Positions 1 to 14,155 of a stretch of DNA of 47,763 nt are shown one piece after another. The DNA is from an uncultured Clostridia bacterium (lineage in GTDB: Bacteria > Bacillota > Clostridia > Lutisporales > Lutisporaceae), in the NCBI GenBank assembly GCA_937930535.1, contig CALGKJ010000044.1, positions 1 through 47,763 of the forward strand, written 5' to 3'. A program made the position numbers and the translations under genes. Every line of letters begins with the position of its first letter. Position 1 is the first letter of the stretch. Under the pieces are notes generated by a model that worked only from the letters and a program-made list of their open reading frames with translations, was not told where the DNA came from and searched no databases.

Positions 1-10
1 ATTAAATAAT

Positions 11-52
11 AAAAAAACTGTTATCCAAAATGAAATTGGGTAACAGTTTTTA
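11..52 (-). terminator. Terminator of the redox/kinase operon
   Basis: An inverted repeat (AAAAACTGTTATCC and its near-complement GGGTAACAGTTTTT, 11-base loop) lies just after the stop of the last operon gene. Read on the minus strand it is followed by a run of T. It fits an intrinsic terminator closing the five-gene operon. Confidence 0.85.
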
Positions 53-63
53 AAATCCTTTTA

Positions 64-1797
64 TTATCTATTAAATCTTTTTTCTTCTTCTTTTAAGTCC
101 AGACCCAGTGTTCCGCCGGGATTCATTATATTATTAGGGTCAAAATGACGTTTTAAAGCCCTATATACATCCATTTGATTTTTGCCTATTTGTCCCTCCA
201 GCCAAGGTGCTATCATTTTTCCTATTCCATGGTGGTGGCTCATGGTTGCTCCGTGCTTTTGTATTGCGTCAAGTATGCCTGAATGATACGCCTTGTATTC
301 TTCAATGGTGTTCATTTTTGCTATGAAAATAAAGTATAAATTAGCTCCTTGGGGGTACATATGGGACATATGGGTCATGCAGATTGTGTCTGGTCTGCTG
401 TGGCAGTACTCCCTTACTCCCTCATGCACGTATTTCATATTATCCCATGATACTGTACATTCAAGGGTGTCTGTCATTACTCCAAAGTCCTGCAAGCTGT
501 CTCTCAGATATGGATCTCTGAATCTTCCATGCTCCCAGTTTTTTGTTACGTATCCTGTTGTGTACATTGCACCGTATTTTTTGCATACCTTGTGAAGCTT
601 TCTTTTTACTACCTTTGTAAAGTCCTTTTCTCCGTCAGTAAAGCCCAGCATCAAGCATCTTTCCATAGGCTTGTAGCCTCTTGCTATAAGCAGCTTGTCT
701 ATTGCTGTGCCTTCTACTCCATACAGCTTCATAGCCACATCAGTTTCCTCGGGGTCAGATATTCTGAATACAGATGGATAACCGAACTGTCCCTGCATTA
801 TTTCTTTTGTTGCTTCCATTGCATCATCCCAAGTCTTGAAAACATAGCTGAAACGCCTCTGATTCTCCGGCATATGTCTGAATATCCTTAAGGTGGCTGA
901 TACCAGTACTCCGAAAGCACCCTCGCTGCCCATCATTATTTCGTCAATGGATGGTCCTGTGGCATTTACAGGGTATTCGTCTGATTTTATTATACCTGCC
1001 GGAGTAACATATTCCTGACTGATAACCAGATCTTCGATTTTACCAAAATAGGTTGAGTTTTGTCCTGCTCCTCTGGTTACTACCCAGCCGCCTACTACTG
1101 AATATTCAAAGGATTGGGGGAAATGTCCGCAGGTATATGCTCTTTTGGCTCCGAAAAGCTCTTGTGCATTGTTAAGCACTTTTTCCAAGTCTGGGCCCGA
1201 CATGCCTGCTTCAACTGTTATTGTCTGGTTTCTTTCATTAAACTTTATTACACGCTTCATATGTACTCGCATATCGAGAGATACTCCGCCTTTTACACAT
1301 TCCACTCCTCTAGTTACCGAGGATCCTCCGCCGTAAATGTATACTGGTATTCTTTGTTCATTGCAGTATTTTACTATAGCGGCTATATCCTCCTTGCTTC
1401 TTGGGTGGAGTACTACGTCGGGGATATTTTCAGCGATTCCCTCTCTTAGGCGCATACAGTCAATCATAGTCTTTCCGTAGGCTATTTGCAGTCTTGAATA
1501 GCCGTCTATTTTGCAATTTTCAGTGCCAACTATGTCTCTAAGAACATCTATCTGCTCTATAGTTAAGCTTATGGAATTGTTCACATGTACTTTTTCCAGA
1601 CCTAGCTTTTGTGGGTTTTTAAAGTCCTCGTCTGTCATTTTGAAGGTTTGCTTCATTAATCTATATAAACGCTCATTTGGGTGCTTAAACTCGCTTGGCG
1701 AGCCCCATTTTAGTATGGATCTGTAGGACTGTTCAGGAGGTGCTTGTTCGTACCATTTTGGTTCTGGTTCGGTTTTATATTTTTTTGTTGTTGACAT
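64..1797 (-). CDS. FAD-binding oxidase, alkyl-DHAP synthase-like
   Basis: A 577-residue soluble flavoprotein of the FAD_binding_4 / FAD-oxidase C-terminal (VAO) family. The FAD domain spans about residues 125-310. It has the GGGSSVTRG loop, the stretch SVVGGWVVTRGAGQNS, and MGSEGAFGVLVSATLRI, all close to alkyldihydroxyacetonephosphate synthase. The C-terminal part carries the SHHHGIGK histidine cluster and the family ending FDPNNIMNPGG. In the known enzyme, acyl-DHAP is converted to alkyl-DHAP in ether-lipid synthesis. Here the true substrate is unknown, because clostridia make plasmalogens by another route. It is the last gene of the operon, 14 bases after the kinase. The neighbouring GlpA-like and GlpK-like genes suggest a glycerol-phosphate-like or other polyol-phosphate substrate. 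The family call is firm; the substrate is not. Confidence 0.85.
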   Translation of the reverse strand: MSTTKKYKTEPEPKWYEQAPPEQSYRSILKWGSPSEFKHPNERLYRLMKQTFKMTDEDFKNPQKLGLEKVHVNNSISLTIEQIDVLRDIVGTENCKIDGYSRLQIAYGKTMIDCMRLREGIAENIPDVVLHPRSKEDIAAIVKYCNEQRIPVYIYGGGSSVTRGVECVKGGVSLDMRVHMKRVIKFNERNQTITVEAGMSGPDLEKVLNNAQELFGAKRAYTCGHFPQSFEYSVVGGWVVTRGAGQNSTYFGKIEDLVISQEYVTPAGIIKSDEYPVNATGPSIDEIMMGSEGAFGVLVSATLRIFRHMPENQRRFSYVFKTWDDAMEATKEIMQGQFGYPSVFRISDPEETDVAMKLYGVEGTAIDKLLIARGYKPMERCLMLGFTDGEKDFTKVVKRKLHKVCKKYGAMYTTGYVTKNWEHGRFRDPYLRDSLQDFGVMTDTLECTVSWDNMKYVHEGVREYCHSRPDTICMTHMSHMYPQGANLYFIFIAKMNTIEEYKAYHSGILDAIQKHGATMSHHHGIGKMIAPWLEGQIGKNQMDVYRALKRHFDPNNIMNPGGTLGLDLKEEEKRFNR

Positions 1798-1811
1798 TTA
1801 TATTTCCCCCT

Positions 1812-3368
1812 TTAATATTCAGGATATTTTGTTATGTCCTGTATCTCTTTGTATAGACCTCTTATTTTGGAATATACCTTTTTATATACTCTGTTGTACA
1901 GCTTGCTGTATATTTCTGAATTGCTGCTGTCAGGCTTAAATTCCTTGCTGTACCTTACCATTCCTTTTACTGCATCATAATAGCTGTTGTACTTTCCGAG
2001 TCCCACCATGCAGCTTATTGCAGCTCCAAGTCCAGAGGCTTCATAGGTTATTCCCTTGTATACGCTTCTATTAAACATGTCTGCTGTAATCTGGCATATT
2101 ATATCGCTTTGGGAGCCTCCGCCCGAAAGCATTATTCTTTCGATTTTCTGCTTGGATTTTTTCTCTATTTTCTCTGTTCCGTCAATAAGTGCATAGTTGA
2201 TGCCTTCTATTATTGATCTGTATATGTGTGCTCTTGTATGTACATCTCCAAAGCCCAATATTGAGCCTTTGGCTTCCGGCATCTTATGGGCAGCTCCCCA
2301 ATAGGGTTGAAGTATCAAGCCGTGGGAGCCGGGTGGTATCTGGCTTAGAAGCTCATTGAGCAGCTCTTCGGGCTGTATGTTTCGTTCTTTTGCTTCAATT
2401 ACTTCTCTGGAGGAAAACTCCTTTTTAAACCAGCTTATCATCCAGTATCCTCTGTTAATCTCAATTTCTGGGTTGTAGTGTCCCGGTACTACCGCAGTAT
2501 ATGATGGAAAAAACTGTATCGGCTCATAATATCTGTTTGTTGTGGTTTGTATTGTTGCTGTTGTTCCGAAGCTTATACTTGCAGAGCCTTCATCAAGACA
2601 GCCGACCCCCAAGGTCTCACAGCTTTTGTCCGAGCCAGAGGCTACTACCGGCAGCCCTTCTTTTATGCCTGTTTCCTCTGCGGCTTTTTTTGTTATGCTG
2701 CCTAGTATCTCCCCCGGTGCTGCAAGCTGGGGCAGTTTTTCTCTTTCTATGCCAAAGACCTTCCATCTGAAATTGGTGTCGGACTTTGGCCAAGACATCT
2801 TTTTATATTCAAATGGTATATGTCCTACTTGATTGGCTATGGAATCTATCATTAATCCTGTCATTCTGTATGTGAAATATCCAGATATCAATAGATATTT
2901 ACAGGTTTTTTCCCATATTTCAGGCTGGTTTTCTTTTATCCAGTTTGCTTTGCTTTTTTTTCGTACGATATCTATAGTTTTGTTCATTCCTACAGCAGAA
3001 AACATTATATTATCCATAAAGGGAAGCTGTTCACTGCACCTTGCCATCCTTTGATCCAGCCAGATTATTGCAGGACGAAGCACCTCACCGCTGCTATTTA
3101 CCAATACCCCTGTGTCTCTTTGGGTAGTAATGGATACTCCGATAATATTTTTCCATATTTCTGGATAGCTTTGTTTTAGTTTCTGGGTGGCTATACATGT
3201 GCTGTCCCAGTATAAAGCCGGGTCTTGCTCTGCCCATCCGGGGTGGTGGGAAAAATATGGCTCAAATTCTACCTTTTCTTTTGCAATAAGATTTCCCCTT
3301 TTATCAAATATCAAGGCTCTAACGCTTTGAGTTCCGCAATCTATAGATAAAACATACTCTTGGCTCAT
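1812..3368 (-). CDS. FGGY-family carbohydrate/polyol kinase
   Basis: A 518-residue sugar kinase of the FGGY family (xylulokinase/glycerol kinase type), which transfers phosphate from ATP to a sugar or polyol. The N-terminal phosphate-1 loop reads LSIDCGTQSVRALIFD. The substrate-facing region includes ITTQRDTGVLV and IIWLDQR. The C-terminal half has the adenosine signature LSGGGSQSDIICQITADMF and SFGTTATIQ. Length is normal for the family. It lies 2 bases after the DUF1667 gene and 14 before the flavoprotein gene, so it is clearly co-transcribed. Partners suggest that its phosphorylated product is oxidised by the GlpA-like enzyme. Substrate specificity cannot be read from the sequence. Confidence 0.9.
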   Translation of the reverse strand: MSQEYVLSIDCGTQSVRALIFDKRGNLIAKEKVEFEPYFSHHPGWAEQDPALYWDSTCIATQKLKQSYPEIWKNIIGVSITTQRDTGVLVNSSGEVLRPAIIWLDQRMARCSEQLPFMDNIMFSAVGMNKTIDIVRKKSKANWIKENQPEIWEKTCKYLLISGYFTYRMTGLMIDSIANQVGHIPFEYKKMSWPKSDTNFRWKVFGIEREKLPQLAAPGEILGSITKKAAEETGIKEGLPVVASGSDKSCETLGVGCLDEGSASISFGTTATIQTTTNRYYEPIQFFPSYTAVVPGHYNPEIEINRGYWMISWFKKEFSSREVIEAKERNIQPEELLNELLSQIPPGSHGLILQPYWGAAHKMPEAKGSILGFGDVHTRAHIYRSIIEGINYALIDGTEKIEKKSKQKIERIMLSGGGSQSDIICQITADMFNRSVYKGITYEASGLGAAISCMVGLGKYNSYYDAVKGMVRYSKEFKPDSSNSEIYSKLYNRVYKKVYSKIRGLYKEIQDITKYPEY

Positions 3369-3370
3369 TT

Positions 3371-3742
3371 TTATACCCCCATCATAATGTACATATCAGA
3401 AGCAGCAACTATATCAACATCTAAATCTAAAACATTTTTTACTATTACTTCGCCGGATTTAACCATATGTGTTACTACAGCTTTATCAATAACCTTCATT
3501 ACCTCAAAAATCTTACCTAGGGGTACTTCTCCGCTGGTTTTAACAGGCAGTCTAGGAATTTCAGGGTATATGGTTTTTACAGTAGTGGTAATTGTCCTTG
3601 TAGGGTTAGTAAGCTCATTTATGGCAAATTCTCTGCCTCTTTTGCACATCTGCCCTGTTACAATATAACCCTCGTTTCCCTGTGCTTCTTCAATTTCAAG
3701 GGTACAGCCTCTGGGACAAATGATGCATGTGATTTTTCTCAT
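3371..3742 (-). CDS. DUF1667 cysteine-cluster protein
   Basis: A 123-residue protein of the DUF1667 family, often found beside GlpA-like and FAD/NAD oxidoreductases. The N-terminus has a cysteine cluster of the form C-x2-C-x3-C (CIICPRGC), followed about 16 residues later by MCKRG. These four cysteines could bind a metal or Fe-S centre. The rest is a small beta-rich domain. It sits 2 bases after the oxidoreductase gene and 2 bases before the kinase gene. By position it resembles a GlpC-like electron-transfer or maturation partner of the dehydrogenase, but that role is an inference. Confidence 0.82.
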   Translation of the reverse strand: MRKITCIICPRGCTLEIEEAQGNEGYIVTGQMCKRGREFAINELTNPTRTITTTVKTIYPEIPRLPVKTSGEVPLGKIFEVMKVIDKAVVTHMVKSGEVIVKNVLDLDVDIVAASDMYIMMGV

Positions 3743-3744
3743 TC

Positions 3745-5016
3745 TTATCCCTCCGTCATTATAATTTCAAGCTTGCAGTCCTGATTTATACTAATATTAC
3801 TCAGGTCAAGTTCAGCCTTTTCCATTTCGGGAGGTCTTATTACACTATGCTTATTCTGGTAAACTATGTTATATCCGCACCTTATTATTACCTTGACATT
3901 CTGCTTTACGTCTCTTGAACGGTAGTAAATTACTGCACTTTTATTGTCTGAACTTGTATCAATATACTGCGGTACTACATAAAGAAAATCCCTGTTGTTT
4001 GATTTTATCTCTATTAGATTTCTGTTATGGCTGTTTCTTGCGTATCTTGAGGCTTGCAATCCTGCCAGCTCACCGCTTTCTGAGACATAATCCACCAGAT
4101 CATTGACATGCAAAGCATTGCCGCAGGAAAAAACACCTTCCATTGTTGTCATAAAATTCTGATCTACAAGGGGTCCCTTGGTGTTTGGATCCAACTTAAT
4201 GTCTAGGGACTCAGCTATTTCATTTTCTGGTACCAAGCCTACTGATAGTATTACGCCGTCACACTTTACAACCTGCTCTGTACCTGAAATTGGCTTCATG
4301 CTTTCATCAACTTTGGAAATTTCGACTGCCTCTACCCTGCCGCTGCCTATAATTCTGGTTATTGTATGAGATAGGTACAGAGGTATATTATAGTCTTCAA
4401 GACACTGTACTATATTTCTTGCCAAGCCTGAGGGAGTTGATTTTGCTTCGTATACCCCCAATACCTTGGAGCCTTCCAGTGTCAGTCTTCTTGCCATTAT
4501 GAGCCCTATATCGCCGCTGCCAAGTATTACACATTCCTTGCAGGGCAGCATCCCCATAATGTTTACAAAGTACTGGGCAGTACCTGCGGTATATATTCCC
4601 GCTGGTCTTGAGCCATGTATAAAAACCTGCTTTGAGGTTCGTTCTCTACAGCCGTTTGCCAGTACAAGTGCTCTTGCTCTTAGGGCGAATACTCCGTTTT
4701 TTTTGTTTACTAACTGCAATTCAAATAACTCATTGTTTTTTTGTATACCTAGTACAAAGGTAGACATCAGCATTGGTATGGACAGCTCATTAACCATTTT
4801 GATATATCGTTCTGCATATTCGGGTCCTGTAAGCTTTTGTTTAAAGCGTATTATTCCAAAGCCGTCATGTATACACTGCTTAAGTATTCCCCCTGCTCTA
4901 TCTTCACGCTCTACGATCAGCACATCAGCTCCAGCTTGTTTGGCTGCATATCCTGCCGCCAGTCCTGCTGGCCCTGCACCAAGGACTATAACGTCATAGG
5001 TCTTTATTTCGCTCAT
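3745..5016 (-). CDS. FAD/NAD(P)-dependent oxidoreductase (GlpB-/HcnB-like)
   Basis: A 423-residue pyridine-nucleotide-disulphide-type oxidoreductase. The N-terminal FAD Rossmann motif is VIVLGAGPAGLAAGYAAKQ followed by an acidic VERED. The second nucleotide-binding fold, ILGSGDIGLIMARRL, lies near residues 163-177. A third conserved patch, GVFSCGNALHVNDLVDYVSE, matches the C-terminal FAD motif of the family. No CxxxxC active-site disulphide was seen, so it is not a thioredoxin reductase. The start overlaps the end of the GlpA-like gene by 4 bases (ATGA type), which suggests translational coupling. It probably forms a complex with that subunit and the DUF1667 protein, passing electrons from the substrate. 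Confidence 0.88.
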   Translation of the reverse strand: MSEIKTYDVIVLGAGPAGLAAGYAAKQAGADVLIVEREDRAGGILKQCIHDGFGIIRFKQKLTGPEYAERYIKMVNELSIPMLMSTFVLGIQKNNELFELQLVNKKNGVFALRARALVLANGCRERTSKQVFIHGSRPAGIYTAGTAQYFVNIMGMLPCKECVILGSGDIGLIMARRLTLEGSKVLGVYEAKSTPSGLARNIVQCLEDYNIPLYLSHTITRIIGSGRVEAVEISKVDESMKPISGTEQVVKCDGVILSVGLVPENEIAESLDIKLDPNTKGPLVDQNFMTTMEGVFSCGNALHVNDLVDYVSESGELAGLQASRYARNSHNRNLIEIKSNNRDFLYVVPQYIDTSSDNKSAVIYYRSRDVKQNVKVIIRCGYNIVYQNKHSVIRPPEMEKAELDLSNISINQDCKLEIIMTEG

Positions 5017-6746
5017 TTTTTTACCTCCTTTGCTATGCTGTCAGTTTTGGTTTCACCTGTCAGCAAATTAGAGGCATTTCCTTTTTTTGTGATTTCTATA
5101 GCTTTTATGCCAGCTTCATTTTGTATAAGCTTGACAACATTTGGCAGACAGAAGCCGCCCTGACATCTTCCCAGTCCTGCTCTGACTCTTCTTTTAATGC
5201 CGTCTATAGTTACACAGGGTATAGGGGATTTGATTGCATCAATTATTTCACCCTTGCTGATTTCCTCACATCTGCAAACTATAACTCCATAGTCAGGTCT
5301 TTGCTTTATGTATTTATTTCTTTCCTCTGGTGTCATTTTGTGAAGCTCTGGTATGCCTTTTCTGATAGGATTCCAGCTTTGTTTTTTATTGATTTGCTTA
5401 TACTGTGATAATACCTTGCAGGTCAGCCTTTCTATTTCCTCAGCAATTGCAGGTGCAGATGCAAGTCCCGGTGATTGTATTCCTGCGGCATGTATCAGGT
5501 TTGGCACGTATTCTGAGGCTTCTATTATAAAATCCTCCTCATAGGTGGCTGCTCTGATGCCTGCAAAATAGGTTATAACGTCTGAGGGTTTTAGTATTGG
5601 TAGTATTTCAAAATGCTTTTTCATAAGATTTTCTATATTTTCTCTGCTTGTGCTGTAGTCCTCTCTATAGGGCTGTTCATAAGAGTCGGGGCCTACCAGT
5701 ATGTTATCTTCTATGGTTCTTACAATGCCGCCGCCCTTTGTTGTTCCCTTGACATTTGTAATGCTGAGCTTGCCTATTACAGAGGTAAGCATACTGCCCT
5801 TCTTTTTATCAAGCAGCAGTACCTGACCCTTGCGAGGGTGTATGGTAAAAAAATTATCCTCTGCCATTTCTGCTATTTTGTCGGAGTATACTCCTGCTGC
5901 ATTAATAACTATTCTGGGAAAAATCTCTCCTCGATTGGTAAGTACAGAAGTGATATCATTCTTATGCTTTTTCATACCTAGTACTATTGTATTTAGACTT
6001 ATTTCTGCTCCATTCATCATGGCATTTTCTGCATAAGCTATAGTGAGCTTGTAGGGTGAAAGCACTGCTGTTGTATTGAAAAGTATACCCCCTGATACAC
6101 TGTCTGAAATCCACTGTTCACGAGCCTTTGCCTCAGCTCTGCTTAAAAGCCTGAAATCCTTTATGCCATTTTTGTTTCCTCTGATTTTAAGATATGGATA
6201 TATGAATTTTACCCAATAGCTGTCATAAACGACCAGAGAGCCGCTTCTTCGCATTGGTACATCCAGTTCTTGAGCTATTTTAGTATACATTTCATTGCCT
6301 TTGATATTGAAATATGCTTTTTTAGATCCAGGCTTTGGCTCAATGCCCGGGTGGATCATTCCGTCATTTCTTGATGAGGCGTGCATTGCCAAGTCCTCTT
6401 CCTTTTCCACCAGCAGCACTGATATATCCCACTTTGACAGCTCTCTGGCGATAGAGCAGCCGATTATGCCGCCGCCTATAACCAGTACATCTACCTTTTT
6501 CCCTTGCAGGGTTGTATCGGTAAACGAAGGACTATTGATCTGCGGTATTTCAAGTCCTTTGACGGTTAGTTTGTTTACAACTCCCTTATACCCCCTGTTT
6601 GCCGCTTTTTTCCCTGCGGCTGTTACTGTATCCCAGCTTTCAACCTTGCCTTCCAGTACAATAGAGTTTCTCCATTCTCTGCATTCAATGGAGTTTGATA
6701 TGTTTTTCCGAAGTTCAGCTTCTATTTTTTTTAGCTGTTTGCTCAA
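5013..6746 (-). CDS. GlpA-like FAD dehydrogenase with BFD-type [2Fe-2S] domain
   Basis: First gene of the operon, about 577 residues. It begins with a BON-like segment (about residues 20-60), then a DAO/GlpA flavin domain starting VLVIGGGIIGCSIARELS, with ASSRNDGMIHPG typical of G3P-dehydrogenase-like proteins. The C-terminus has a BFD-like Fe-S domain with cysteines in VIVCRCEE and LGRCQGGFC. This is the architecture of anaerobic glycerol-3-phosphate dehydrogenase subunit A relatives. An upstream TTG at 6761 is possible. I prefer the TTG at 6746 (LSKQLKK) because the GGGGGGTGG ribosome site sits just before it. A consensus promoter lies upstream. The exact substrate is unproven. Confidence 0.85.
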   Translation of the reverse strand: MSKQLKKIEAELRKNISNSIECREWRNSIVLEGKVESWDTVTAAGKKAANRGYKGVVNKLTVKGLEIPQINSPSFTDTTLQGKKVDVLVIGGGIIGCSIARELSKWDISVLLVEKEEDLAMHASSRNDGMIHPGIEPKPGSKKAYFNIKGNEMYTKIAQELDVPMRRSGSLVVYDSYWVKFIYPYLKIRGNKNGIKDFRLLSRAEAKAREQWISDSVSGGILFNTTAVLSPYKLTIAYAENAMMNGAEISLNTIVLGMKKHKNDITSVLTNRGEIFPRIVINAAGVYSDKIAEMAEDNFFTIHPRKGQVLLLDKKKGSMLTSVIGKLSITNVKGTTKGGGIVRTIEDNILVGPDSYEQPYREDYSTSRENIENLMKKHFEILPILKPSDVITYFAGIRAATYEEDFIIEASEYVPNLIHAAGIQSPGLASAPAIAEEIERLTCKVLSQYKQINKKQSWNPIRKGIPELHKMTPEERNKYIKQRPDYGVIVCRCEEISKGEIIDAIKSPIPCVTIDGIKRRVRAGLGRCQGGFCLPNVVKLIQNEAGIKAIEITKKGNASNLLTGETKTDSIAKEVKK

Positions 6747-6763
6747 ATAACCACCCCCCAAGT

Positions 6764-6777
6764 TTCGGTTGTCCGAA
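6764..6777. promoter_or_regulatory. Small inverted repeat, possible operator
   Basis: TTCGG and CCGAA separated by four bases lie between the operon promoter and its first start codon. The position would suit a repressor site or short leader hairpin. There is no second copy to compare, so this is only a candidate. Confidence 0.3.
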
Positions 6778-6797
6778 CATCCTAATATTCTAACCTC

Positions 6798-6826
6798 ATT
6801 ATATGTTATTATATTATGCTAGTCAA
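6798..6826 (-). promoter_or_regulatory. Sigma-A promoter of the redox/kinase operon
   Basis: On the minus strand TTGACT and TATAAT are separated by exactly 17 bases, about 50 bases before the preferred start of the GlpA-like gene. It lies in the short gap shared with the divergent XRE-TPR regulator, so that regulator could bind here. Confidence 0.75.
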
Positions 6827-6887
6827 ACAAAATATGAAACACTGGAATCAGTTTATTTACAGTTGATGCATTGAAAAGTATTGGTAT

Positions 6888-8180
6888 ATGTGCAATAATA
6901 TGAATATGAAAAAAGAAAATACATCACCTCTAAACACAAGCTTTATTAACCAACGTATTAAAGAACTGGATCTAAAACAAGTCTGGCTGGCATCAAAGAT
7001 AGGAGTTGATAAAATAACTATTAACCGATGGACCAGTGGAAAGGTAAAGCGAATTGCAAGCCATAATGCAAAGTTACTTGCACAATATCTTCAATGTACT
7101 GTTAACGATATTATTCTGAAAAATGATATTATAGCCGCTGGTACTAATGTTGAAAAAGAATCAGCTATTGAAAACATTCTGTCAGATGATTTAATAGCGA
7201 TTCTATCTCCCTTTGAAAAATGGGATTTGGCGGAAAGCATTATTAAGGCTTCTATTCATCCTAATATTGAGCCTCTAAAAATTGCCCAACTTTACAATCA
7301 TCTTTGGTGTGTTAATCTGAACAAAAACAATTTTGATCAAGCAATTTACTTTGCCTACAAAGCTCTAAGCATTAGCAAGAGATATGTTAATAAGAGAATG
7401 TTTGTTTTATCCTTATTTAATATTGCTACCGCTCATGTCTTAAATGGTAATTACAATTCTTCTATGAGTGTGTATGACTACTGTGTCCACAACATTGAGC
7501 ATTTAGCTTCTCAAAAGGAACAAGCAGCAATATACAATAATCTTGCCACCCTTCATCAATATTACTGCAATTTCAACACAAGCATAGATTCATTTAGTAA
7601 GTCTGTTAGTCTCCTCGCAAAAGAAGCTAATTATTTTAAGCTTTGTTTAACCTTTATAGGTATTGGTGATCTTTATATCGAGATCGGAAATATAGAAGAG
7701 GCTTTAAGTGCGCTATCTAAGGCATACGACTATGCTGTCAAGTCCAACTATCGTACTGGCACTATTCGCAGCACATTTTACAAAGTAGATGCATTCATTG
7801 TCAGCAGGCAGTTAGATGAAGCTGTTAATATGATGAAGTATGATTTGAATACTTTAGTTGAGAATAATATTAAGGATTTACACTGCTACGAGATTTTGGC
7901 AAGATATCACAGACATTTAGGGAATTTTAATAAAGCATTAGAAATAATCCAATCAGGTCTGAATACATGTTGCAGCCATCCTTTGGAAGAAGCTCGAATG
8001 TTACAGGAAGAAGCAAGACTTGCCCTCGTAATGATGAATTCTAAGGATGAATCAGCCTTTAGAAAAAAGGCAAACAGGCTTTTCAAAAGCGGCAGACTGT
8101 ACGACAGAATCTGGAACACAACCATTGCAGAGTATGGTCATATGTATAGTATTAATGATAAAAGCTGGTTATTAAAGTAG
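6888..8180 (+). CDS. XRE-type regulator with TPR sensor domain (RRNPP-like)
   Basis: A 430-residue protein, one of only two plus-strand genes. The N-terminal XRE helix-turn-helix (about residues 20-75) contains KQVWLASKIGVDKITINRWTSG. The rest is helical with tetratricopeptide-like pairs, for example AIYNNLATLHQYYCNFNTS and GIGDLYIEIGNIEEALSALS. This layout is that of RRNPP regulators (PlcR, Rgg, NprR, Rap), which read small peptides. No signal-peptide gene was recognised beside it. No strong ribosome site decides among the Met codons at 6888, 6900 and 6906. It is divergent from the redox/kinase operon and separated by about 140 bases, so it is a likely regulator of that operon. Confidence 0.85.
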   Translation: MCNNMNMKKENTSPLNTSFINQRIKELDLKQVWLASKIGVDKITINRWTSGKVKRIASHNAKLLAQYLQCTVNDIILKNDIIAAGTNVEKESAIENILSDDLIAILSPFEKWDLAESIIKASIHPNIEPLKIAQLYNHLWCVNLNKNNFDQAIYFAYKALSISKRYVNKRMFVLSLFNIATAHVLNGNYNSSMSVYDYCVHNIEHLASQKEQAAIYNNLATLHQYYCNFNTSIDSFSKSVSLLAKEANYFKLCLTFIGIGDLYIEIGNIEEALSALSKAYDYAVKSNYRTGTIRSTFYKVDAFIVSRQLDEAVNMMKYDLNTLVENNIKDLHCYEILARYHRHLGNFNKALEIIQSGLNTCCSHPLEEARMLQEEARLALVMMNSKDESAFRKKANRLFKSGRLYDRIWNTTIAEYGHMYSINDKSWLLK

Positions 8181-8211
8181 TATCCTCAATAACCAGCTTA
8201 GTTCTTTTTTA
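8162..8211. terminator. Terminator overlapping the regulator stop codon
   Basis: A 12-bp perfect stem (AAGCTGGTTATT / AATAACCAGCTT) begins inside the last codons of the XRE-TPR gene. It is followed on the plus strand by TTCTTTTTT. It also lies directly after the lipase stop on the minus strand, so it may work both ways for these convergent genes. Confidence 0.85.
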
Positions 8212-9930
8212 TTTACTTACTATATTCAGCTTGCTAGTAGCTTCATTAAAATTCAATAATATTGTACTATTTGTATTATTTAAATTAAGGTTCTCAATGG
8301 TATCTTTTTTTATCACTTGTGTAGCTGCATATTCTCTTGCCTGAATACTTGCTACGCTGGTTCCTGCAACCTCAATTCCATAGTCTTTAAGCTGACCTGG
8401 TACATAGACAATATACATTTCTCCGAGGGTTTGTATATATGAGCCTTTCTCAATGGTATTTAGCAGCTTAAGTCCATTTTCAGCTTGTACATATCCTATT
8501 TTTAATGATTTATTGGTTTTGTTATAAACAGTAGGAGACTTATCACTTTTTACTAATATTATTGTGCCATTTATACCTCTTTTCAGCACTTCGGCTTCAT
8601 CATCGGATTTTTCTGCTGCTGTAGAGGTTGTAGATGATAAAACCTGTTTTATATAGGTAATTACCTCAGGATTAACTGGCAGCTTCATATGATCTACTTC
8701 ATAAACAAATTTCTTTTGGGTTATATTAGGATTTCCAAGATCACATGCGCTTGGGAATGGAACTGTAGCATCACCAATATTAAAGTTGATTTCATCAAAA
8801 TGCAAGCCTCTATACCAAGGGTCATGGGCTTCCATTGTATACAGGGTCGGAAGACTTGAGCCAGCTACTACATAGTGCTTGACTCCATCCTTTACTACTG
8901 ATTGTCCATCAAAGCCGTTATGAAAAATATCGTTGGAGTTATATACACTAGCGTTAGAGTTATAGCGTCTTCTTATCATTTCTTTAATTTCATCAAAATC
9001 CAGATATTCAGTATCATCACCGTCACCATCCATATCTGCACTATTTTCATAGAAGTAGCTTGTCCAAGTCTTGCTTCCGTATTTATAGTAATATGGGTTG
9101 CTTACTACAAGTTCAAAGTATTTTCTGCTAGGCATTAGCTCATAACTAGATTTATAGTTCTTAACTAATTCTCTCACTTTATTATCGTTAATTCCTATCA
9201 ATGGATCTATAAAACAGAAGCTATCTCCTATGGTTAATGCAGCCATTGATTTTACAGAGCCTAAATAGGGACTTCCAAGACTTATAAATTTATGGACATT
9301 GCCACGATTTGCTGCACTTGTTAGTAAATATTTTTTTGTAAGCAGTCCGCCCATAGAATGAGCTATTATATCAACCTTATTCCAGCCGCTCCTTTGCTTT
9401 GCAATATCAATAACCTCTTGCAGAGAGTTTAATCTGGTTGAGATGCTGTATCTCCAATCAAAGGGTGCTGCAAACAGGTTAACACCTCTTTGATAACCAT
9501 TTCTCTCAAGTTCTTCAATAAGTGCATTCCATATATCTGAGCCTGTTTTATCTCTTAGTAAGCCGTCCAATAATCCGTTGTTAATTTGCTGCTGAGTGTA
9601 TCCGCCTATTCTCTTTGATGTATATATCTGATAAGTGGACATAAAGGGATTAACACCATCAGGGCTCAATCTCAATGGATTAAGGTGATTATCCCAAGGA
9701 TCAAGCAAGCAATCAGCAGTATCAAACCATCTATGGTTATATGTGTTTTGTCCATTAGATACGCCTTCAAAGGAGTATAGGTGGCTTCCCATCATACCAG
9801 GCACTAAAATAACAGGTTTTTTTGCAGATATTTCTGTTGATATGCTGCTTGCAGTTGCAACATTAGTAAATATTGTTCCTACAGATATTAGCAAAGCTAA
9901 TATCAACATACAGCTTATTATTTTTCTCAT
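8209..9930 (-). CDS. Secreted LCAT-family lipase/acyltransferase
   Basis: About 573 residues. A Sec signal peptide (Met-Arg-Lys, hydrophobic core, cleavage near TASS) precedes an alpha/beta-hydrolase of the lecithin:cholesterol acyltransferase-like group. PVILVPGMMGSHLYS opens the fold. The nucleophile elbow is AHSMGG, with Ser at about residue 190. Acid and histidine candidates are GDATVPFPSA and VDHMKLPVNP. The tail (about 100 residues) is probably a separate beta-rich or wall-contact region. The start is placed at ATG 9930, because AGGAGGG precedes it at normal spacing and abuts the upstream TTG. It likely hydrolyses or transacylates extracellular lipids or esters. It has no operon partner. 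Confidence 0.87.
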   Translation of the reverse strand: MRKIISCMLILALLISVGTIFTNVATASSISTEISAKKPVILVPGMMGSHLYSFEGVSNGQNTYNHRWFDTADCLLDPWDNHLNPLRLSPDGVNPFMSTYQIYTSKRIGGYTQQQINNGLLDGLLRDKTGSDIWNALIEELERNGYQRGVNLFAAPFDWRYSISTRLNSLQEVIDIAKQRSGWNKVDIIAHSMGGLLTKKYLLTSAANRGNVHKFISLGSPYLGSVKSMAALTIGDSFCFIDPLIGINDNKVRELVKNYKSSYELMPSRKYFELVVSNPYYYKYGSKTWTSYFYENSADMDGDGDDTEYLDFDEIKEMIRRRYNSNASVYNSNDIFHNGFDGQSVVKDGVKHYVVAGSSLPTLYTMEAHDPWYRGLHFDEINFNIGDATVPFPSACDLGNPNITQKKFVYEVDHMKLPVNPEVITYIKQVLSSTTSTAAEKSDDEAEVLKRGINGTIILVKSDKSPTVYNKTNKSLKIGYVQAENGLKLLNTIEKGSYIQTLGEMYIVYVPGQLKDYGIEVAGTSVASIQAREYAATQVIKKDTIENLNLNNTNSTILLNFNEATSKLNIVSK

Positions 9931-11068: not shown

Positions 11069-11461
11069 CTATTTTTCAAGGTTGTATAACAGATTCTCAA
11101 AGTCCTTAATATAGCTGTTTACTATTCTTTCAGCTATTTCTTCCGCCATTTCCTCTTTATACACATGTGAAGTCAAATTTCTATCATTGAGCATTATGAG
11201 CCAGTTTTTTTCGTCTGCGATTATTTTCTGAGCGTATGCTTCTTTAATAACTGCTTTTGGTGAATTTCTATCTACTATGCCCAAGTCTTCAAGATACTCT
11301 TTTGTTGCTTTCCAAGCAAGCTCATATGTAAATTCAAACCGTTGAATCAAGCCGTCTCGTATAACATCACTGGTATAATTTTTGTCAAGCTCTTCTGCGG
11401 CTTCCTTGAGCCTTTTTAATGCATTGCTAAAGTTTATCAGCTTAGTTCCCAGCTTGCTCAT
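11069..11461 (-). CDS. hepT: HEPN toxin of a HepT/MntA pair (HI0074-like)
   Basis: A 130-residue all-helical protein of the nucleotidyltransferase substrate-binding/HEPN group. The HEPN ribonuclease motif Rx4HxY is present as RNLTSHVY near residue 95. Aromatic- and acidic-rich helices (FEFTYELAWKATKEYLEDLG) match HI0074/HepT. In type VII toxin-antitoxin systems the HEPN protein is an RNase toxin that the MNT partner silences by AMPylation. It overlaps the 3' end of the MNT gene by 20 bases, so the antitoxin gene is first and translation is coupled. It lies at the edge of a defence-remnant island. Confidence 0.88.
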   Translation of the reverse strand: MSKLGTKLINFSNALKRLKEAAEELDKNYTSDVIRDGLIQRFEFTYELAWKATKEYLEDLGIVDRNSPKAVIKEAYAQKIIADEKNWLIMLNDRNLTSHVYKEEMAEEIAERIVNSYIKDFENLLYNLEK

Positions 11462-11750
11462 ATATGATTACACCTTCATTCTTAATATTTTCCATTAGCT
11501 TATGATCTAATTTTTCATCAACAAATACAAGGTCTATTTTTTTTAATGTTTCAACTTCTTCCATATCCAAGCTAAAGCTTGCTTTCTCGTAAGCTGATAT
11601 ACCAGACTTAAATACCGCAATGTCATAGTCGCTTAAAGCGGAATTATCTCCTCTTGCACGTGAACCAAATAAAACTAATTTTTCAACATCGTATTTTTTG
11701 GCAAATTCACATATTTGCAGTAAAACACTATCCATAATTTCATTGCACAT
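11442..11750 (-). CDS. mntA: MNT nucleotidyltransferase antitoxin
   Basis: A minimal nucleotidyltransferase of about 102 residues. The diagnostic GSx10DxD motif is complete (GSRARGDNSALSDYD), with a later acidic strand KKIDLVFVDE for the third carboxylate. It is the expected antitoxin of the HEPN protein encoded next, transferring AMP to the toxin. An ATG at 11780 also opens the frame but has no ribosome site. The ATG at 11750 is preceded by TTGGAG at good spacing, so I chose it. Its promoter lies in the 57-bp direct repeat just upstream. Confidence 0.85.
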   Translation of the reverse strand: MCNEIMDSVLLQICEFAKKYDVEKLVLFGSRARGDNSALSDYDIAVFKSGISAYEKASFSLDMEEVETLKKIDLVFVDEKLDHKLMENIKNEGVIIYEQAGN

Positions 11751-11774
11751 TCTGTATTCTCCAATATAAAGATA

Positions 11775-11831
11775 TTTCATATATATTATTATATATTATG
11801 TGCCATATAATAACAATTAGAGATAAATATT
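11775..11831 (-). repeat. 57-bp direct repeat, copy 1, carrying a promoter
   Basis: Identical at 54 of 57 positions to 14099-14155. On the minus strand it holds TTGTTA and TATAAT 17 bases apart (11811-11816 and 11788-11793), about 40 bases before the MNT start. It is the left boundary of the BREX-remnant segment. Unlike copy 2, it lacks the right arm of the palindrome. Confidence 0.8.
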
Positions 11832-11869
11832 AAATATAGCTAACCTGTAGAGTACTTGCAAGCTCCTCT

Positions 11870-12031
11870 CTATACTCCAAAGCCAAAGTCATCTGAAAAT
11901 TTTTCGCCGGCTTCTTTGATATAGTATATTTTCATTTCAACAAGCAAAAGGATATCGCTTACATTTTCCCTCTGCATAAACTCAATATACGTAATATGGT
12001 TAGTTACCTTTCGGCTTAGAGAAGCCAGCAC
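11870..12031 (-). pseudogene. Unidentified open fragment, downstream part of the defence remnant
   Basis: An open stretch of about 53 codons in a different frame from the pglZ remnant, overlapping its end by 32 bases and running to TAG at 11870. Its translation includes NHITYIEFMQRENVSDILLL and ends SDDFGFGV. No ribosome site or convincing start was seen, and I do not recognise the family. It is probably the 3' end of a gene fused to the pglZ remnant by deletion. Confidence 0.35.
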
Positions 12032-12149
12032 AAATTATAGAATCAACCTCTTGAACGCGTTCTGCGTTATCATCATACCAAAATACAATCTTGCGTTCTG
12101 AATCCCTAAATTCATTATTCAGTTTGTCTTGAATGTTTTTCAAATCCAC
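12000..12149 (-). pseudogene. pglZ: 5' remnant of a BREX pglZ gene
   Basis: A 49-codon open frame with a GTG start at 12149, 11 bases after GGAGG. Its first part, VDLKNIQDKLNNEF then RKIVFWYDD, matches the well-conserved N-terminus of BREX PglZ phosphatases, as I recall that family. Full-length PglZ is more than 800 residues; here homology stops after about 38 residues and a stop follows. It lies downstream of the ATPase/nuclease pair, the place pglZ occupies after pglX in type 1 BREX operons. I infer a deletion remnant. It is short, so a profile search is needed to confirm it. Confidence 0.65.
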
Positions 12150-12208
12150 TGCATTCCCACTCCCTCCGAGTATTTTACAATGTGCATATAACGTTTTTAT
12201 CCTTAAGC

Positions 12209-12718
12209 TTATGCTGAGCTGATTGGGAATTTAGAATATAATGGATTATTATTCCATTCATCTATTGACAAAACTTCAAAGCTGCTGATAATTTGTTGCT
12301 TAATATCACCATCTGTCTGCAATTGAAATGGCAGCTTTGATGCAATTTTGTTTCTTATCATTTTTCTTGTGGTGGAATCACCCATTGGGTATTCTAAAAT
12401 ATATATATACCTGTAAGGTTTTTTATGTCCGCAGGCTTGAATATATATATAGCTGTCATAAAACTTATATGCTATTTTCAAAGTTGACTTATCCGATGAG
12501 GGAACAAAAGCGTTCGGATTACTAGCAGATGCAATATTTGAATTTTTATACTCTACAAATAATATATCGCTGTCTGTTTCAGCAACAAAATCCACATCGG
12601 ACAAAATAGATGCTACAGTATTATTAAATAAGCTATTAAGCTTGTCCGTTGACCAGACAGCAGATGAAAAATCAAATTGATATACTTGGTTTTCTTCTTT
12701 ATGAATAGTTCCAGCCAT
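12209..12718 (-). CDS. Putative PD-(D/E)xK-like nuclease partner of the ATPase
   Basis: A 169-residue protein I do not recognise by name. Residues about 40-60 read SDVDFVAETDSDILFVEYKN, an acidic residue, hydrophobic strand and E-x-K arrangement like the PD-(D/E)xK nuclease core. The following YKFYDSYIYIQACG strand and helix are compatible with this fold. It starts 2 bases after the ATPase stop, with its ribosome site (GGGGGAATAGG) inside the ATPase end, so the two are coupled. An ATPase plus nuclease pair is a common shape for anti-phage systems. The nuclease call is a motif-level inference only. Confidence 0.6.
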   Translation of the reverse strand: MAGTIHKEENQVYQFDFSSAVWSTDKLNSLFNNTVASILSDVDFVAETDSDILFVEYKNSNIASASNPNAFVPSSDKSTLKIAYKFYDSYIYIQACGHKKPYRYIYILEYPMGDSTTRKMIRNKIASKLPFQLQTDGDIKQQIISSFEVLSIDEWNNNPLYSKFPISSA

Positions 12719-12720
12719 TC

Positions 12721-13737
12721 CTATTCCCCCAAATTTTTATCATAGACTTCGTCTAGCAGTGCGTTAAATGCTTTTACAATAGAATTTTTCTTTATATCTT
12801 TAAAATAAATGTTTCTTTCACATTGCACTCCATTAGGAGACTCATAAAGTGAAAAAAACATAACATCATCCGCTGCTTTTCTTTTTACCTCAAAATACTT
12901 TGCAAAGATATAATCATGAGTTGCTATAAAAATTTGAACACCATTTCTTTGTAATTCAAGCAGCATTTCAACTATTACTGGAATATGAACAGGATTAATA
13001 TTTGCTTCTGGTTCATCCCAAAACAAAATAGAGCCTTTTTCAAGAGTACCATTTTTTATAAGCTGCCATAGCAATGCGATTTTACGAATACCCTCGGCAA
13101 CCAATTGAAACTCTATTTTAGCCTGATTTCCGGGCTTTATTAAATAAAATTTTTCTTTTTCTATAGTAACTTTTCCTGTGGTAATTTTTTGAAGTATAGC
13201 AAGATATTTTTTTCTATCCGTAGTATCTCGCCCAGAAGTAATATCTATTTTTGCAGATGTTACTATATCAACATATGTATCGTCAAAATCTACATTATTT
13301 TTGTCAACAGCCGCTTCAAGATTCCATGCATTCGATAGTATTTCTTTAGCTGGAATAAAGGTGCTTGTTAAATCTCCTAACTGTCTCTCCCATTTCTCTT
13401 CTGAAAATACTTCAGCATCCCATTTTTTAGTCAACTTACTAAATTTAGTTGAAATCGCTGCTGATTCGGATATAACCTTAATATTAGCACCTAAGTCACC
13501 TGGATTTTTTCTTACAAGTCTGCTAATCTTTAAATCGTCTGGCTTAAATACCTTTACCAGCTTGTGTGAAAAGGATATGTCTTTTCTCACTGCTTGACAA
13601 GCACTATATAATAATTTGATTATATGTGTTTTGCCTGTTCCATTTTCTCCGATAAATACGTTTATACCCTTACTAAAATCTATATCAAGCTTCTCAAATA
13701 CAGTAAAATTTTCAACGCTGATTTTCTTAATTGACAT
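12721..13737 (-). CDS. AAA/ABC-type ATPase, OLD-like (AAA_15/AAA_21)
   Basis: About 338 residues. Walker A is GENGTGKT (near residue 31), in the SMC/RecF-like context INVFIGENGTGKTHIIKLLYSA. Walker B is ILFWDEPEANINP and a switch histidine lies in FIATHDYIFAKYF. The signature region is degenerate (LVAEGIRKIALL). It has no TOPRIM domain, so it is not a full OLD protein. The start is placed at ATG 13737 after AAGGGGTG rather than 13773. It pairs with the nuclease-like gene downstream. Both lie between apparent pglX and pglZ fragments, so this was probably an accessory pair within a BREX operon. It is uninterrupted and looks functional. Confidence 0.85.
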   Translation of the reverse strand: MSIKKISVENFTVFEKLDIDFSKGINVFIGENGTGKTHIIKLLYSACQAVRKDISFSHKLVKVFKPDDLKISRLVRKNPGDLGANIKVISESAAISTKFSKLTKKWDAEVFSEEKWERQLGDLTSTFIPAKEILSNAWNLEAAVDKNNVDFDDTYVDIVTSAKIDITSGRDTTDRKKYLAILQKITTGKVTIEKEKFYLIKPGNQAKIEFQLVAEGIRKIALLWQLIKNGTLEKGSILFWDEPEANINPVHIPVIVEMLLELQRNGVQIFIATHDYIFAKYFEVKRKAADDVMFFSLYESPNGVQCERNIYFKDIKKNSIVKAFNALLDEVYDKNLGE

Positions 13738-13760
13738 ACTCGCACCCCTTTCCTTATTTA

Positions 13761-13863
13761 TATAGTCAAGCAACTCTAAAGCTCAAAATACTTTTCGCCA
13801 AGACTTGCTAGACTATTTGAGAGAAACAACAGGAAATATTTAATTTTGAAATTGTTCTCTATA
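13761..13863. repeat. MITE-like repeat R1, full copy a
   Basis: 103 bp, the most diverged full copy. It begins TATAGTCAAGCAACT and ends ATTGTTCTCTATA, with the family core CTCAAAATACTTTTCG. It lies between the pglX remnant and the ATPase start, so it separates the ATPase from its ancestral operon promoter. Confidence 0.8.
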
Positions 13864-13870
13864 TTATACC

Positions 13871-14053
13871 CTAAATCTTCCCTAATAAATCAAGCTTACT
13901 TGCCTTTTTCCCTCCTTTGCGGACTTCTATGCCTTGAAATTTGGCATAGTTTACGGTTACTATATCATCAAGGTAATGTTTCCAGTTGGTCTTTATTTCA
14001 CTGTCAGGATGCCCTTCCATCCCCTGCACTATATTCCAATGTTTATATCTCCT
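13871..14053 (-). pseudogene. pglX: 3' remnant of a BREX pglX methylase gene
   Basis: An open frame of about 60 codons running to TAG at 13871, with a stop just before it at the 5' side and no proper start (an internal ATG at 14020 is possible). The translation contains NWKHYLDDIVTVNYAKFQGI. This resembles the C-terminal LDDGVKVNYxKF signature of BREX PglX adenine methylases, as I recall it. The end KLDLLGKI fits the same region. The intact enzyme is well over 1000 residues, so nearly all of it is gone. Its place upstream of the ATPase, with a pglZ start downstream, supports a BREX origin. Confidence 0.6.
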
Positions 14054-14098
14054 TCAAAACTTATTGTATATAATTATAAATAATTGGTGCGTTTAATT

Positions 14099-14155
14099 TT
14101 TCATATATATTATTATATAGCATGTGCCATTTAATAACAATTAGAGATAAATATT
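14099..14155 (-). repeat. 57-bp direct repeat, copy 2, carrying a promoter
   Basis: 54 of 57 bases match copy 1 at 11775-11831. It holds the same TTGTTA/TATAAT pair with a 17-base spacer (14135-14140 and 14112-14117) reading toward the pglX remnant and the ATPase. It marks the right edge of the remnant segment. Confidence 0.8.

Follow-up and report, generated by a model that had tools for sequence, protein, structure and literature searches.

A probable remnant of a type 1 BREX region with an intact HEC-02 gene pair in an uncultured Clostridia bacterium

The remnant and its flanking repeats

The window, which is the whole stretch of 47,763 nucleotides analysed here (contig CALGKJ010000044.1 of an uncultured Clostridia bacterium), carries on its minus strand, from 14155 to 11772, a direct repeat (R1), a composite scrap of pglX, an intact ATPase gene, an intact partner gene, a scrap of the start of pglZ, a second pglZ scrap and a further copy of the direct repeat (R2), the last of which runs into the start of an mntA-hepT pair on the same strand. 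Both groups of scraps and the intact pair share one strand and follow the order of a BREX operon. An earlier note on this DNA had described two broken genes around two intact ones and had read the former as the end of PglX (13871-14053) and the start of PglZ (12000-12149); the order and strand are as it gave them, both intact genes are real, and the profile search which it proposed for the fragments, once run, returned matches to both PglX and PglZ profiles. The note was thus right as to these two scraps, while an inner piece of PglX, an inner piece of PglZ and the 60-bp repeats had been overlooked.

The pglX scrap is composed of codons ~271-289 (MEGHPDSEIKTNWKHYLDD; 13964-14020, minus strand), which show 63% identity over 19 amino acids to the intact PglX of locus L105, joined in frame at a shared LDD to the last ~33 codons and the stop codon (LDDIVTVNYAKFQGIEVRKGGKKASKLDLLGKI; 13871-13972, minus strand). 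The latter piece matches positions 670-706 of the 707 positions of PADLOC profile PDLC02517 (E 3.4e-7) and is 73% identical over 34 amino acids to the end of the intact PglX of locus L047. At the other end of the remnant, codons 1-~44 of pglZ, with the motif KIVFWYDD, are found at 12033-12149 (minus strand) and match positions 1-44 of the 855 positions of PADLOC profile PDLC02564 (E 2e-7); the same PglZ start also matches NCBIfam TIGR02687, at E 0.0065 and with a score well under the curated cut-off. A third scrap (11870-12031) consists of pglZ codons 743-789 (11888-12028, minus strand; PDLC02564, E 4.2e-9), frame shifted relative to the 5' scrap, and of the pglZ terminus SDDFGF (codons 850-855; 11879-11896, minus strand), joined after codon ~788, this last piece being short and identified by its position. 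Those deletion junctions that are readable coincide with short stretches of similar sequence.

The remnant is bracketed by R1 (14096-14155) and R2 (11772-11831), which are 60-bp direct repeats, 93% identical and both on the minus strand, whose homology extends in the alignment to about 14199 and about 11853, respectively, with an indel in R2. Both copies contain the promoter-like site TTGTTA-17-TATAAT, which in R1 reads into the remnant and is directed at the intact pair, and R1 additionally has an overlapping palindrome with 16-bp arms. The start codon of an intact mntA-like nucleotidyltransferase antitoxin gene (11442-11780, minus strand; 46.5 bits, where the NCBIfam cut-off is 60) lies within R2, as does its promoter-like region; this gene is followed by an intact hepT-like partner gene of the HI0074 family (11069-11461, minus strand). 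The mntA-hepT pair (11069-11780) lies directly downstream of the relic, and R1 is a second copy of its promoter region and start codon, from which copy the intact ATPase-partner pair may be transcribed. No other copy of the repeat at its 60-bp length was found in the genome. As read from the sequence, the repeats would fit either insertion of the segment at mntA or a local duplication. One same-genus genome was compared for an empty site, and it gave no match to mntA and a match of only 44% to the neighbouring lipase-like gene.

A type 1 BREX system comprises the six core genes brxA, brxB, brxC, pglX, pglZ and brxL, and in the window these are represented by pglX and pglZ scraps only, in operon order and on one strand. 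The matches to pglZ in the genome are these scraps alone, and queries with BrxC and BrxL from G010, a genome of the same family, found nothing in that of the window, the assembly of which is 97% complete, an empty answer of this kind being weaker evidence than a match. The one other PglX-like match in the genome (G000:C3:32777-33184) is a partial, low-score match in a 600-amino-acid open frame and was judged to be unrelated to BREX. As the core genes are reduced to scraps and no brxC, brxL, pglX or pglZ was found elsewhere in the genome, the locus is regarded as a relic and not as a BREX system. Genome G010 itself has type 1 BREX in intact form (L105), the gene between pglX and pglZ being of the Schlafen/AlbA type, which indicates that BREX occurs in this family and that the content of this slot is variable.

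The HEC-02 pair and its association with BREX

The first of the two intact genes (12721-13737, minus strand) encodes a 338-amino-acid ABC-type ATPase that matches the PADLOC HEC-02A profile with 433.9 bits; its start is taken as the ATG at 13737, the listed TTG start at 13773 being probably too early. Its Walker A (GENGTGKT), Walker B (FWDEPEAN) and THDY motifs are conserved in 46 relatives, and its AF2 model (pLDDT 88) has as nearest folds PtuA of Septu and retron I-A and the heads of Rad50/SMC proteins. The second gene (12209-12718, minus strand) encodes a 169-amino-acid protein which matches the HEC-02B profile with 226.8 bits. Both profiles are covered nearly entirely and the two genes are adjacent and in the same order as in HEC-02, so that the pair, which the earlier note had termed ATPase/nuclease-like, can now be named HEC-02A and a PD-(D/E)XK-like HEC-02B.

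The nuclease assignment of HEC-02B comes from its motif and its predicted structure. Position 43 is D or E (D43 here) and E56, K58 and K85 are invariant in 59 sequences, which in the AF2 model (pLDDT 93; strands 44-47 and 52-59, helix 76-95) places an acidic residue and the (D/E)-x-K element, E56-x-K58, on adjacent strands, as in the PD-(D/E)XK motif. The top VIA folds are mostly of the PD-(D/E)XK type (Can2, BstEII, EcoO109I, FokI, BspD6I and McrC), at Z scores of 5-6.3 that are individually weak. Foldseek with the same model gave no match below E 0.03, and a comparison of the HEC-02B sequence with solved structures found nothing. Given the motif, the confident model and the fold matches of modest Z score, HEC-02B is likely to have nuclease activity. 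Across loci L016-L095 the HEC-02B partners fall into three types (E-Y-K-N, E-A-K and other), which are as low as 13-20% identical and which are paired with ATPases that are 55-63% identical to each other; the partner type switches ~5 times on the ATPase tree as compared to a mean of 31 when shuffled, and the nuclease may have been swapped, or may be diverging fast, under a conserved ATPase.

The distribution of the pair was surveyed in the best 80 relatives of the ATPase in GTDB genomes, a search seeded with the ATPase. As ABC ATPases match everywhere, searches with the HEC-02A family are noisy and a match was read as HEC-02 at E < 1e-50. The earlier note had proposed a comparison with related genomes, which in 9 of the 80 showed the same pair exactly in the pglX-pglZ interval of a type 1 BREX operon (L043, L045, L046, L047, L053, L055, L064, L069 and L079). 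At L052 the pair lies between brxC and a split pglX, at L056 it is just upstream of brxA, and on the Methylomonas plasmid pLM6 a pair of which both ATPase and partner were confirmed as HEC-02 is located between brxC and pglX. The remaining surveyed loci have a solo pair or a contig too short to judge, most pairs being solo. BREX linkage is scattered on the ATPase tree, requiring 12 changes, or 9 when relics are counted as BREX and short contigs are dropped, which implies repeated movement of pairs into and out of BREX. Among the HEC-02A relatives, those nearest to the window (L016-L018, 71-79% identical) are solo and have no convincing BREX scrap, so that the window's own lineage offers no intact BREX intermediate.

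Several loci show further features. The closest relative of the pair (79%; L016:15043-21010) is solo and lies ~4 kb from genes which by eye resemble a type I restriction-modification set. In L017 (positions 1-9000) the pair is found among three ~1 kb repeated units containing integrase-like fragments, two of which are 100% identical and flank the pair, with nucleotidyltransferase and MNT-HEPN genes between units, and the region looks like a cassette array. The pglX of L052 (8373-11882) is split and out of order, its C-terminal part (865-1165) preceding its N-terminal part (1-859), and this may be a specificity region that has been rearranged or can invert. In other BREX operons the pglX-pglZ slot is occupied by a Schlafen/AlbA_2 gene (L105, 13723-14883) or by a gene for a YhcG PDDEXK nuclease (L117, 17105-18262), and the slot is a general docking place for accessory genes.

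Taken together, the segment is most probably what is left of a type 1 BREX region that carried the HEC-02 pair, a predicted ATPase-held nuclease, in its pglX-pglZ slot, the deletions having spared the pair. By this account brxA, brxB, brxC, brxL, nearly all of pglX and most of pglZ would have been lost by deletion. A rather unlikely alternative is that a full BREX was never present at this site and that transfer brought in a recombined cassette, in which short pieces of pglX and pglZ flanked the HEC-02 pair, and which on insertion upstream of mntA-hepT left the 60-bp repeats. The direct repeats that duplicate the mntA 5' region and bracket the remnant are in keeping with such an event, as are the mobility of the pairs indicated by the 12 changes on the ATPase tree and the position of the L017 relative among repeated integrase-like fragments. 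However, both ends and the interior of pglZ, as well as the interior and the end of pglX, are represented among the scraps, which implies that complete genes were cut down in several deletion steps, at one place or another, either before arrival or afterwards. The segment showed no integrase or transposase.

Recurrent BREX relics and selection on the pair

The reading of the segment as a decayed BREX region can be set beside the other solo loci, for each of which the 350 bases upstream of the ATPase were scored against PglX ends and the 350 bases downstream of the partner against PglZ starts, a total of 127 tests over 69 loci, for which 3,000 segments drawn from these loci served as controls. 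Scores above every control were obtained in five tests, namely PglX at L051 (191), L050 (89), L035 (76) and L061 (63) and PglZ at L026 (65), and in all five solo pairs the scrap lies on the correct flank and strand. PglX scraps at L017 and L092 (48 and 52) were slightly above the 99% control level and were left uncounted. At L051, which has the clearest relic, brxA codons 1-22 form an in-frame fusion with the final 40 codons of pglX, and the pair follows immediately. L061, the sister of L051, keeps the last 16 pglX codons and shares with L051 66 bp of upstream DNA at 82%, while L026 and L035 are sisters that retain opposite ends. The relic label needs four changes, on the starred branches of the ATPase tree, and the window and the five other loci constitute at least four separate relic lineages; BREX has therefore collapsed repeatedly onto an embedded HEC-02 pair. 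No description of such recurrent collapse was found in the literature consulted, and its ingredients are each of a known kind, namely HEC-02 and PARIS-like modules inside BREX.

Between the ATPases of the window and L016, dN is 0.14 and dS is 1.7, a comparison in which dS is near saturation and the time before BREX loss is mixed with the time after it. For both genes of the relic-bearing sister pairs L026/L035 and L051/L061, dN/dS is about 0.08-0.15. Judged by these substitution ratios, the codons of the pair are under purifying selection, and this would apply to the period after BREX loss if, as we infer, each sister pair shares a single loss. The relics at five other loci and a dN well below dS both help the suggestion of the earlier note that the pair was selectively retained. 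A bystander pair, so far spared by chance and not kept by selection, is unlikely, slightly more so than insertion of a cassette. If the decay is recent, an intact ~1.5 kb might remain by chance, and the antiviral role of the pair is a prediction. Yet the pair is intact in at least four relic lineages in which the BREX genes to either side have been reduced or lost, and dN is far below dS in the relic-bearing sister pairs. The recurrence argument is weakened by the ATPase-seeded survey, which is blind to loci that lost the pair, the frequency of BREX decay without the pair being outside its reach.

Chance resemblance of the scraps to PglX and PglZ can be dismissed, for despite their short length (19-50 amino acids) there are at least four pieces with the correct order, strand and gene termini and E values down to 4e-9, and the local-alignment scores of the flanks of the window pair, 109 for PglX and 119 for PglZ, compare with control maxima of 55 and 60 in 3,000 segments. 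In addition, HMMs built from the intact, full-length PglX and PglZ of BREX-bearing loci and run against six-frame translations of the fetched loci and of 6 kb of the window returned BREX loci, the relic at L051 and the scraps of the window, besides which there were only two weak matches of methyltransferase type.

Proposed function and meaning of the surviving pair

HEC-02 is listed in PADLOC-DB as a candidate defence pair, among the Hma-embedded candidates, and the window pair resembles it at full length, being here linked to BREX scraps. No paper was retrieved from the accessible literature under the name HEC-02; some HECs are reported as validated, HEC-02 not being singled out. A two-gene ATPase-DUF4435 insert is known from the Salmonella StySA BREX, and we take it to be PARIS (the ABC-ATPase AriA with AriB, DUF4435/TOPRIM). 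This insert likewise lies between pglX and pglZ, and deletion of either gene leaves methylation unaffected (PMC9009780). The likeness to HEC-02 is that of an ABC-ATPase with a small nuclease, predicted in the case of HEC-02B, in the same slot. HEC-02A has a secondary match to the AriA profile, with 72.5 bits (E 1.4e-20), its match to the HEC-02A profile in PADLOC being 434 bits. The partners differ, as HEC-02B has a PD-(D/E)XK-type motif and predicted fold whereas the PARIS partner has TOPRIM; no Pfam match of HEC-02B to DUF4435 was obtained at E up to 1, and its best PADLOC match is HEC-02B, so that it does not qualify as AriB. Similarly, the fold of HEC-02A is nearest to PtuA and the Rad50/SMC heads, but HEC-02B differs from PtuB, the HNH partner in Septu and the retron I-A effector, in being non-HNH, with no HNH match in Pfam and no PtuB match in PADLOC, and the pair is thus not Septu. 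In the accessible part of a 2026 survey, pairs of an OLD-ABC ATPase with a nuclease, of the PD-(D/E)XK or another type, are presented as backup effectors inside BREX loci (PMC12839542). The pairs with PD-(D/E)XK nucleases have the same architecture and the same proposed backup role; they sit in intact loci, and in that part of the text no mention was found of collapse onto the pair.

By analogy with PARIS and Septu, the best-supported mechanism would be that of an ATPase sensor which holds and then releases a nuclease. HEC-02A would be a PtuA/AriA-like ABC-ATPase sensor holding HEC-02B, a putative PD-(D/E)XK nuclease, and release of HEC-02B would follow a phage trigger, which might be a phage protein acting to disable restriction or BREX. 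Once released, HEC-02B may cut phage or host nucleic acid and stop the infection. A guard that is triggered by phage anti-restriction proteins would be a natural extension of this analogy to HEC-02. It is proposed that, being self-contained, the pair would keep its value after BREX loss.

We tentatively suggest, as one possibility, that BREX collapses repeatedly onto the pair because the latter acts as an autonomous guard, the trigger of which (such as an anti-restriction protein of a phage) outlasts BREX, and that deletions can set the pair beside the former BREX promoter region, as in L051, or under a duplicated toxin-antitoxin promoter, as in the window. If this is true, loss of BREX turns a backup into a free-standing system. 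That the same outcome is seen in unrelated bacteria suggests that the embedded pair is useful alone. Embedded defence genes are found through guilt by embedding, which does not reveal whether they depend on the host system. Loci that have lost the host system by deletion but kept the embedded pair are natural experiments on this point, and they indicate that HEC-02 can outlive BREX; the window, L051, L061, L050, L026 and L035 provide concrete loci at which the autonomy of HEC-02 can be addressed.
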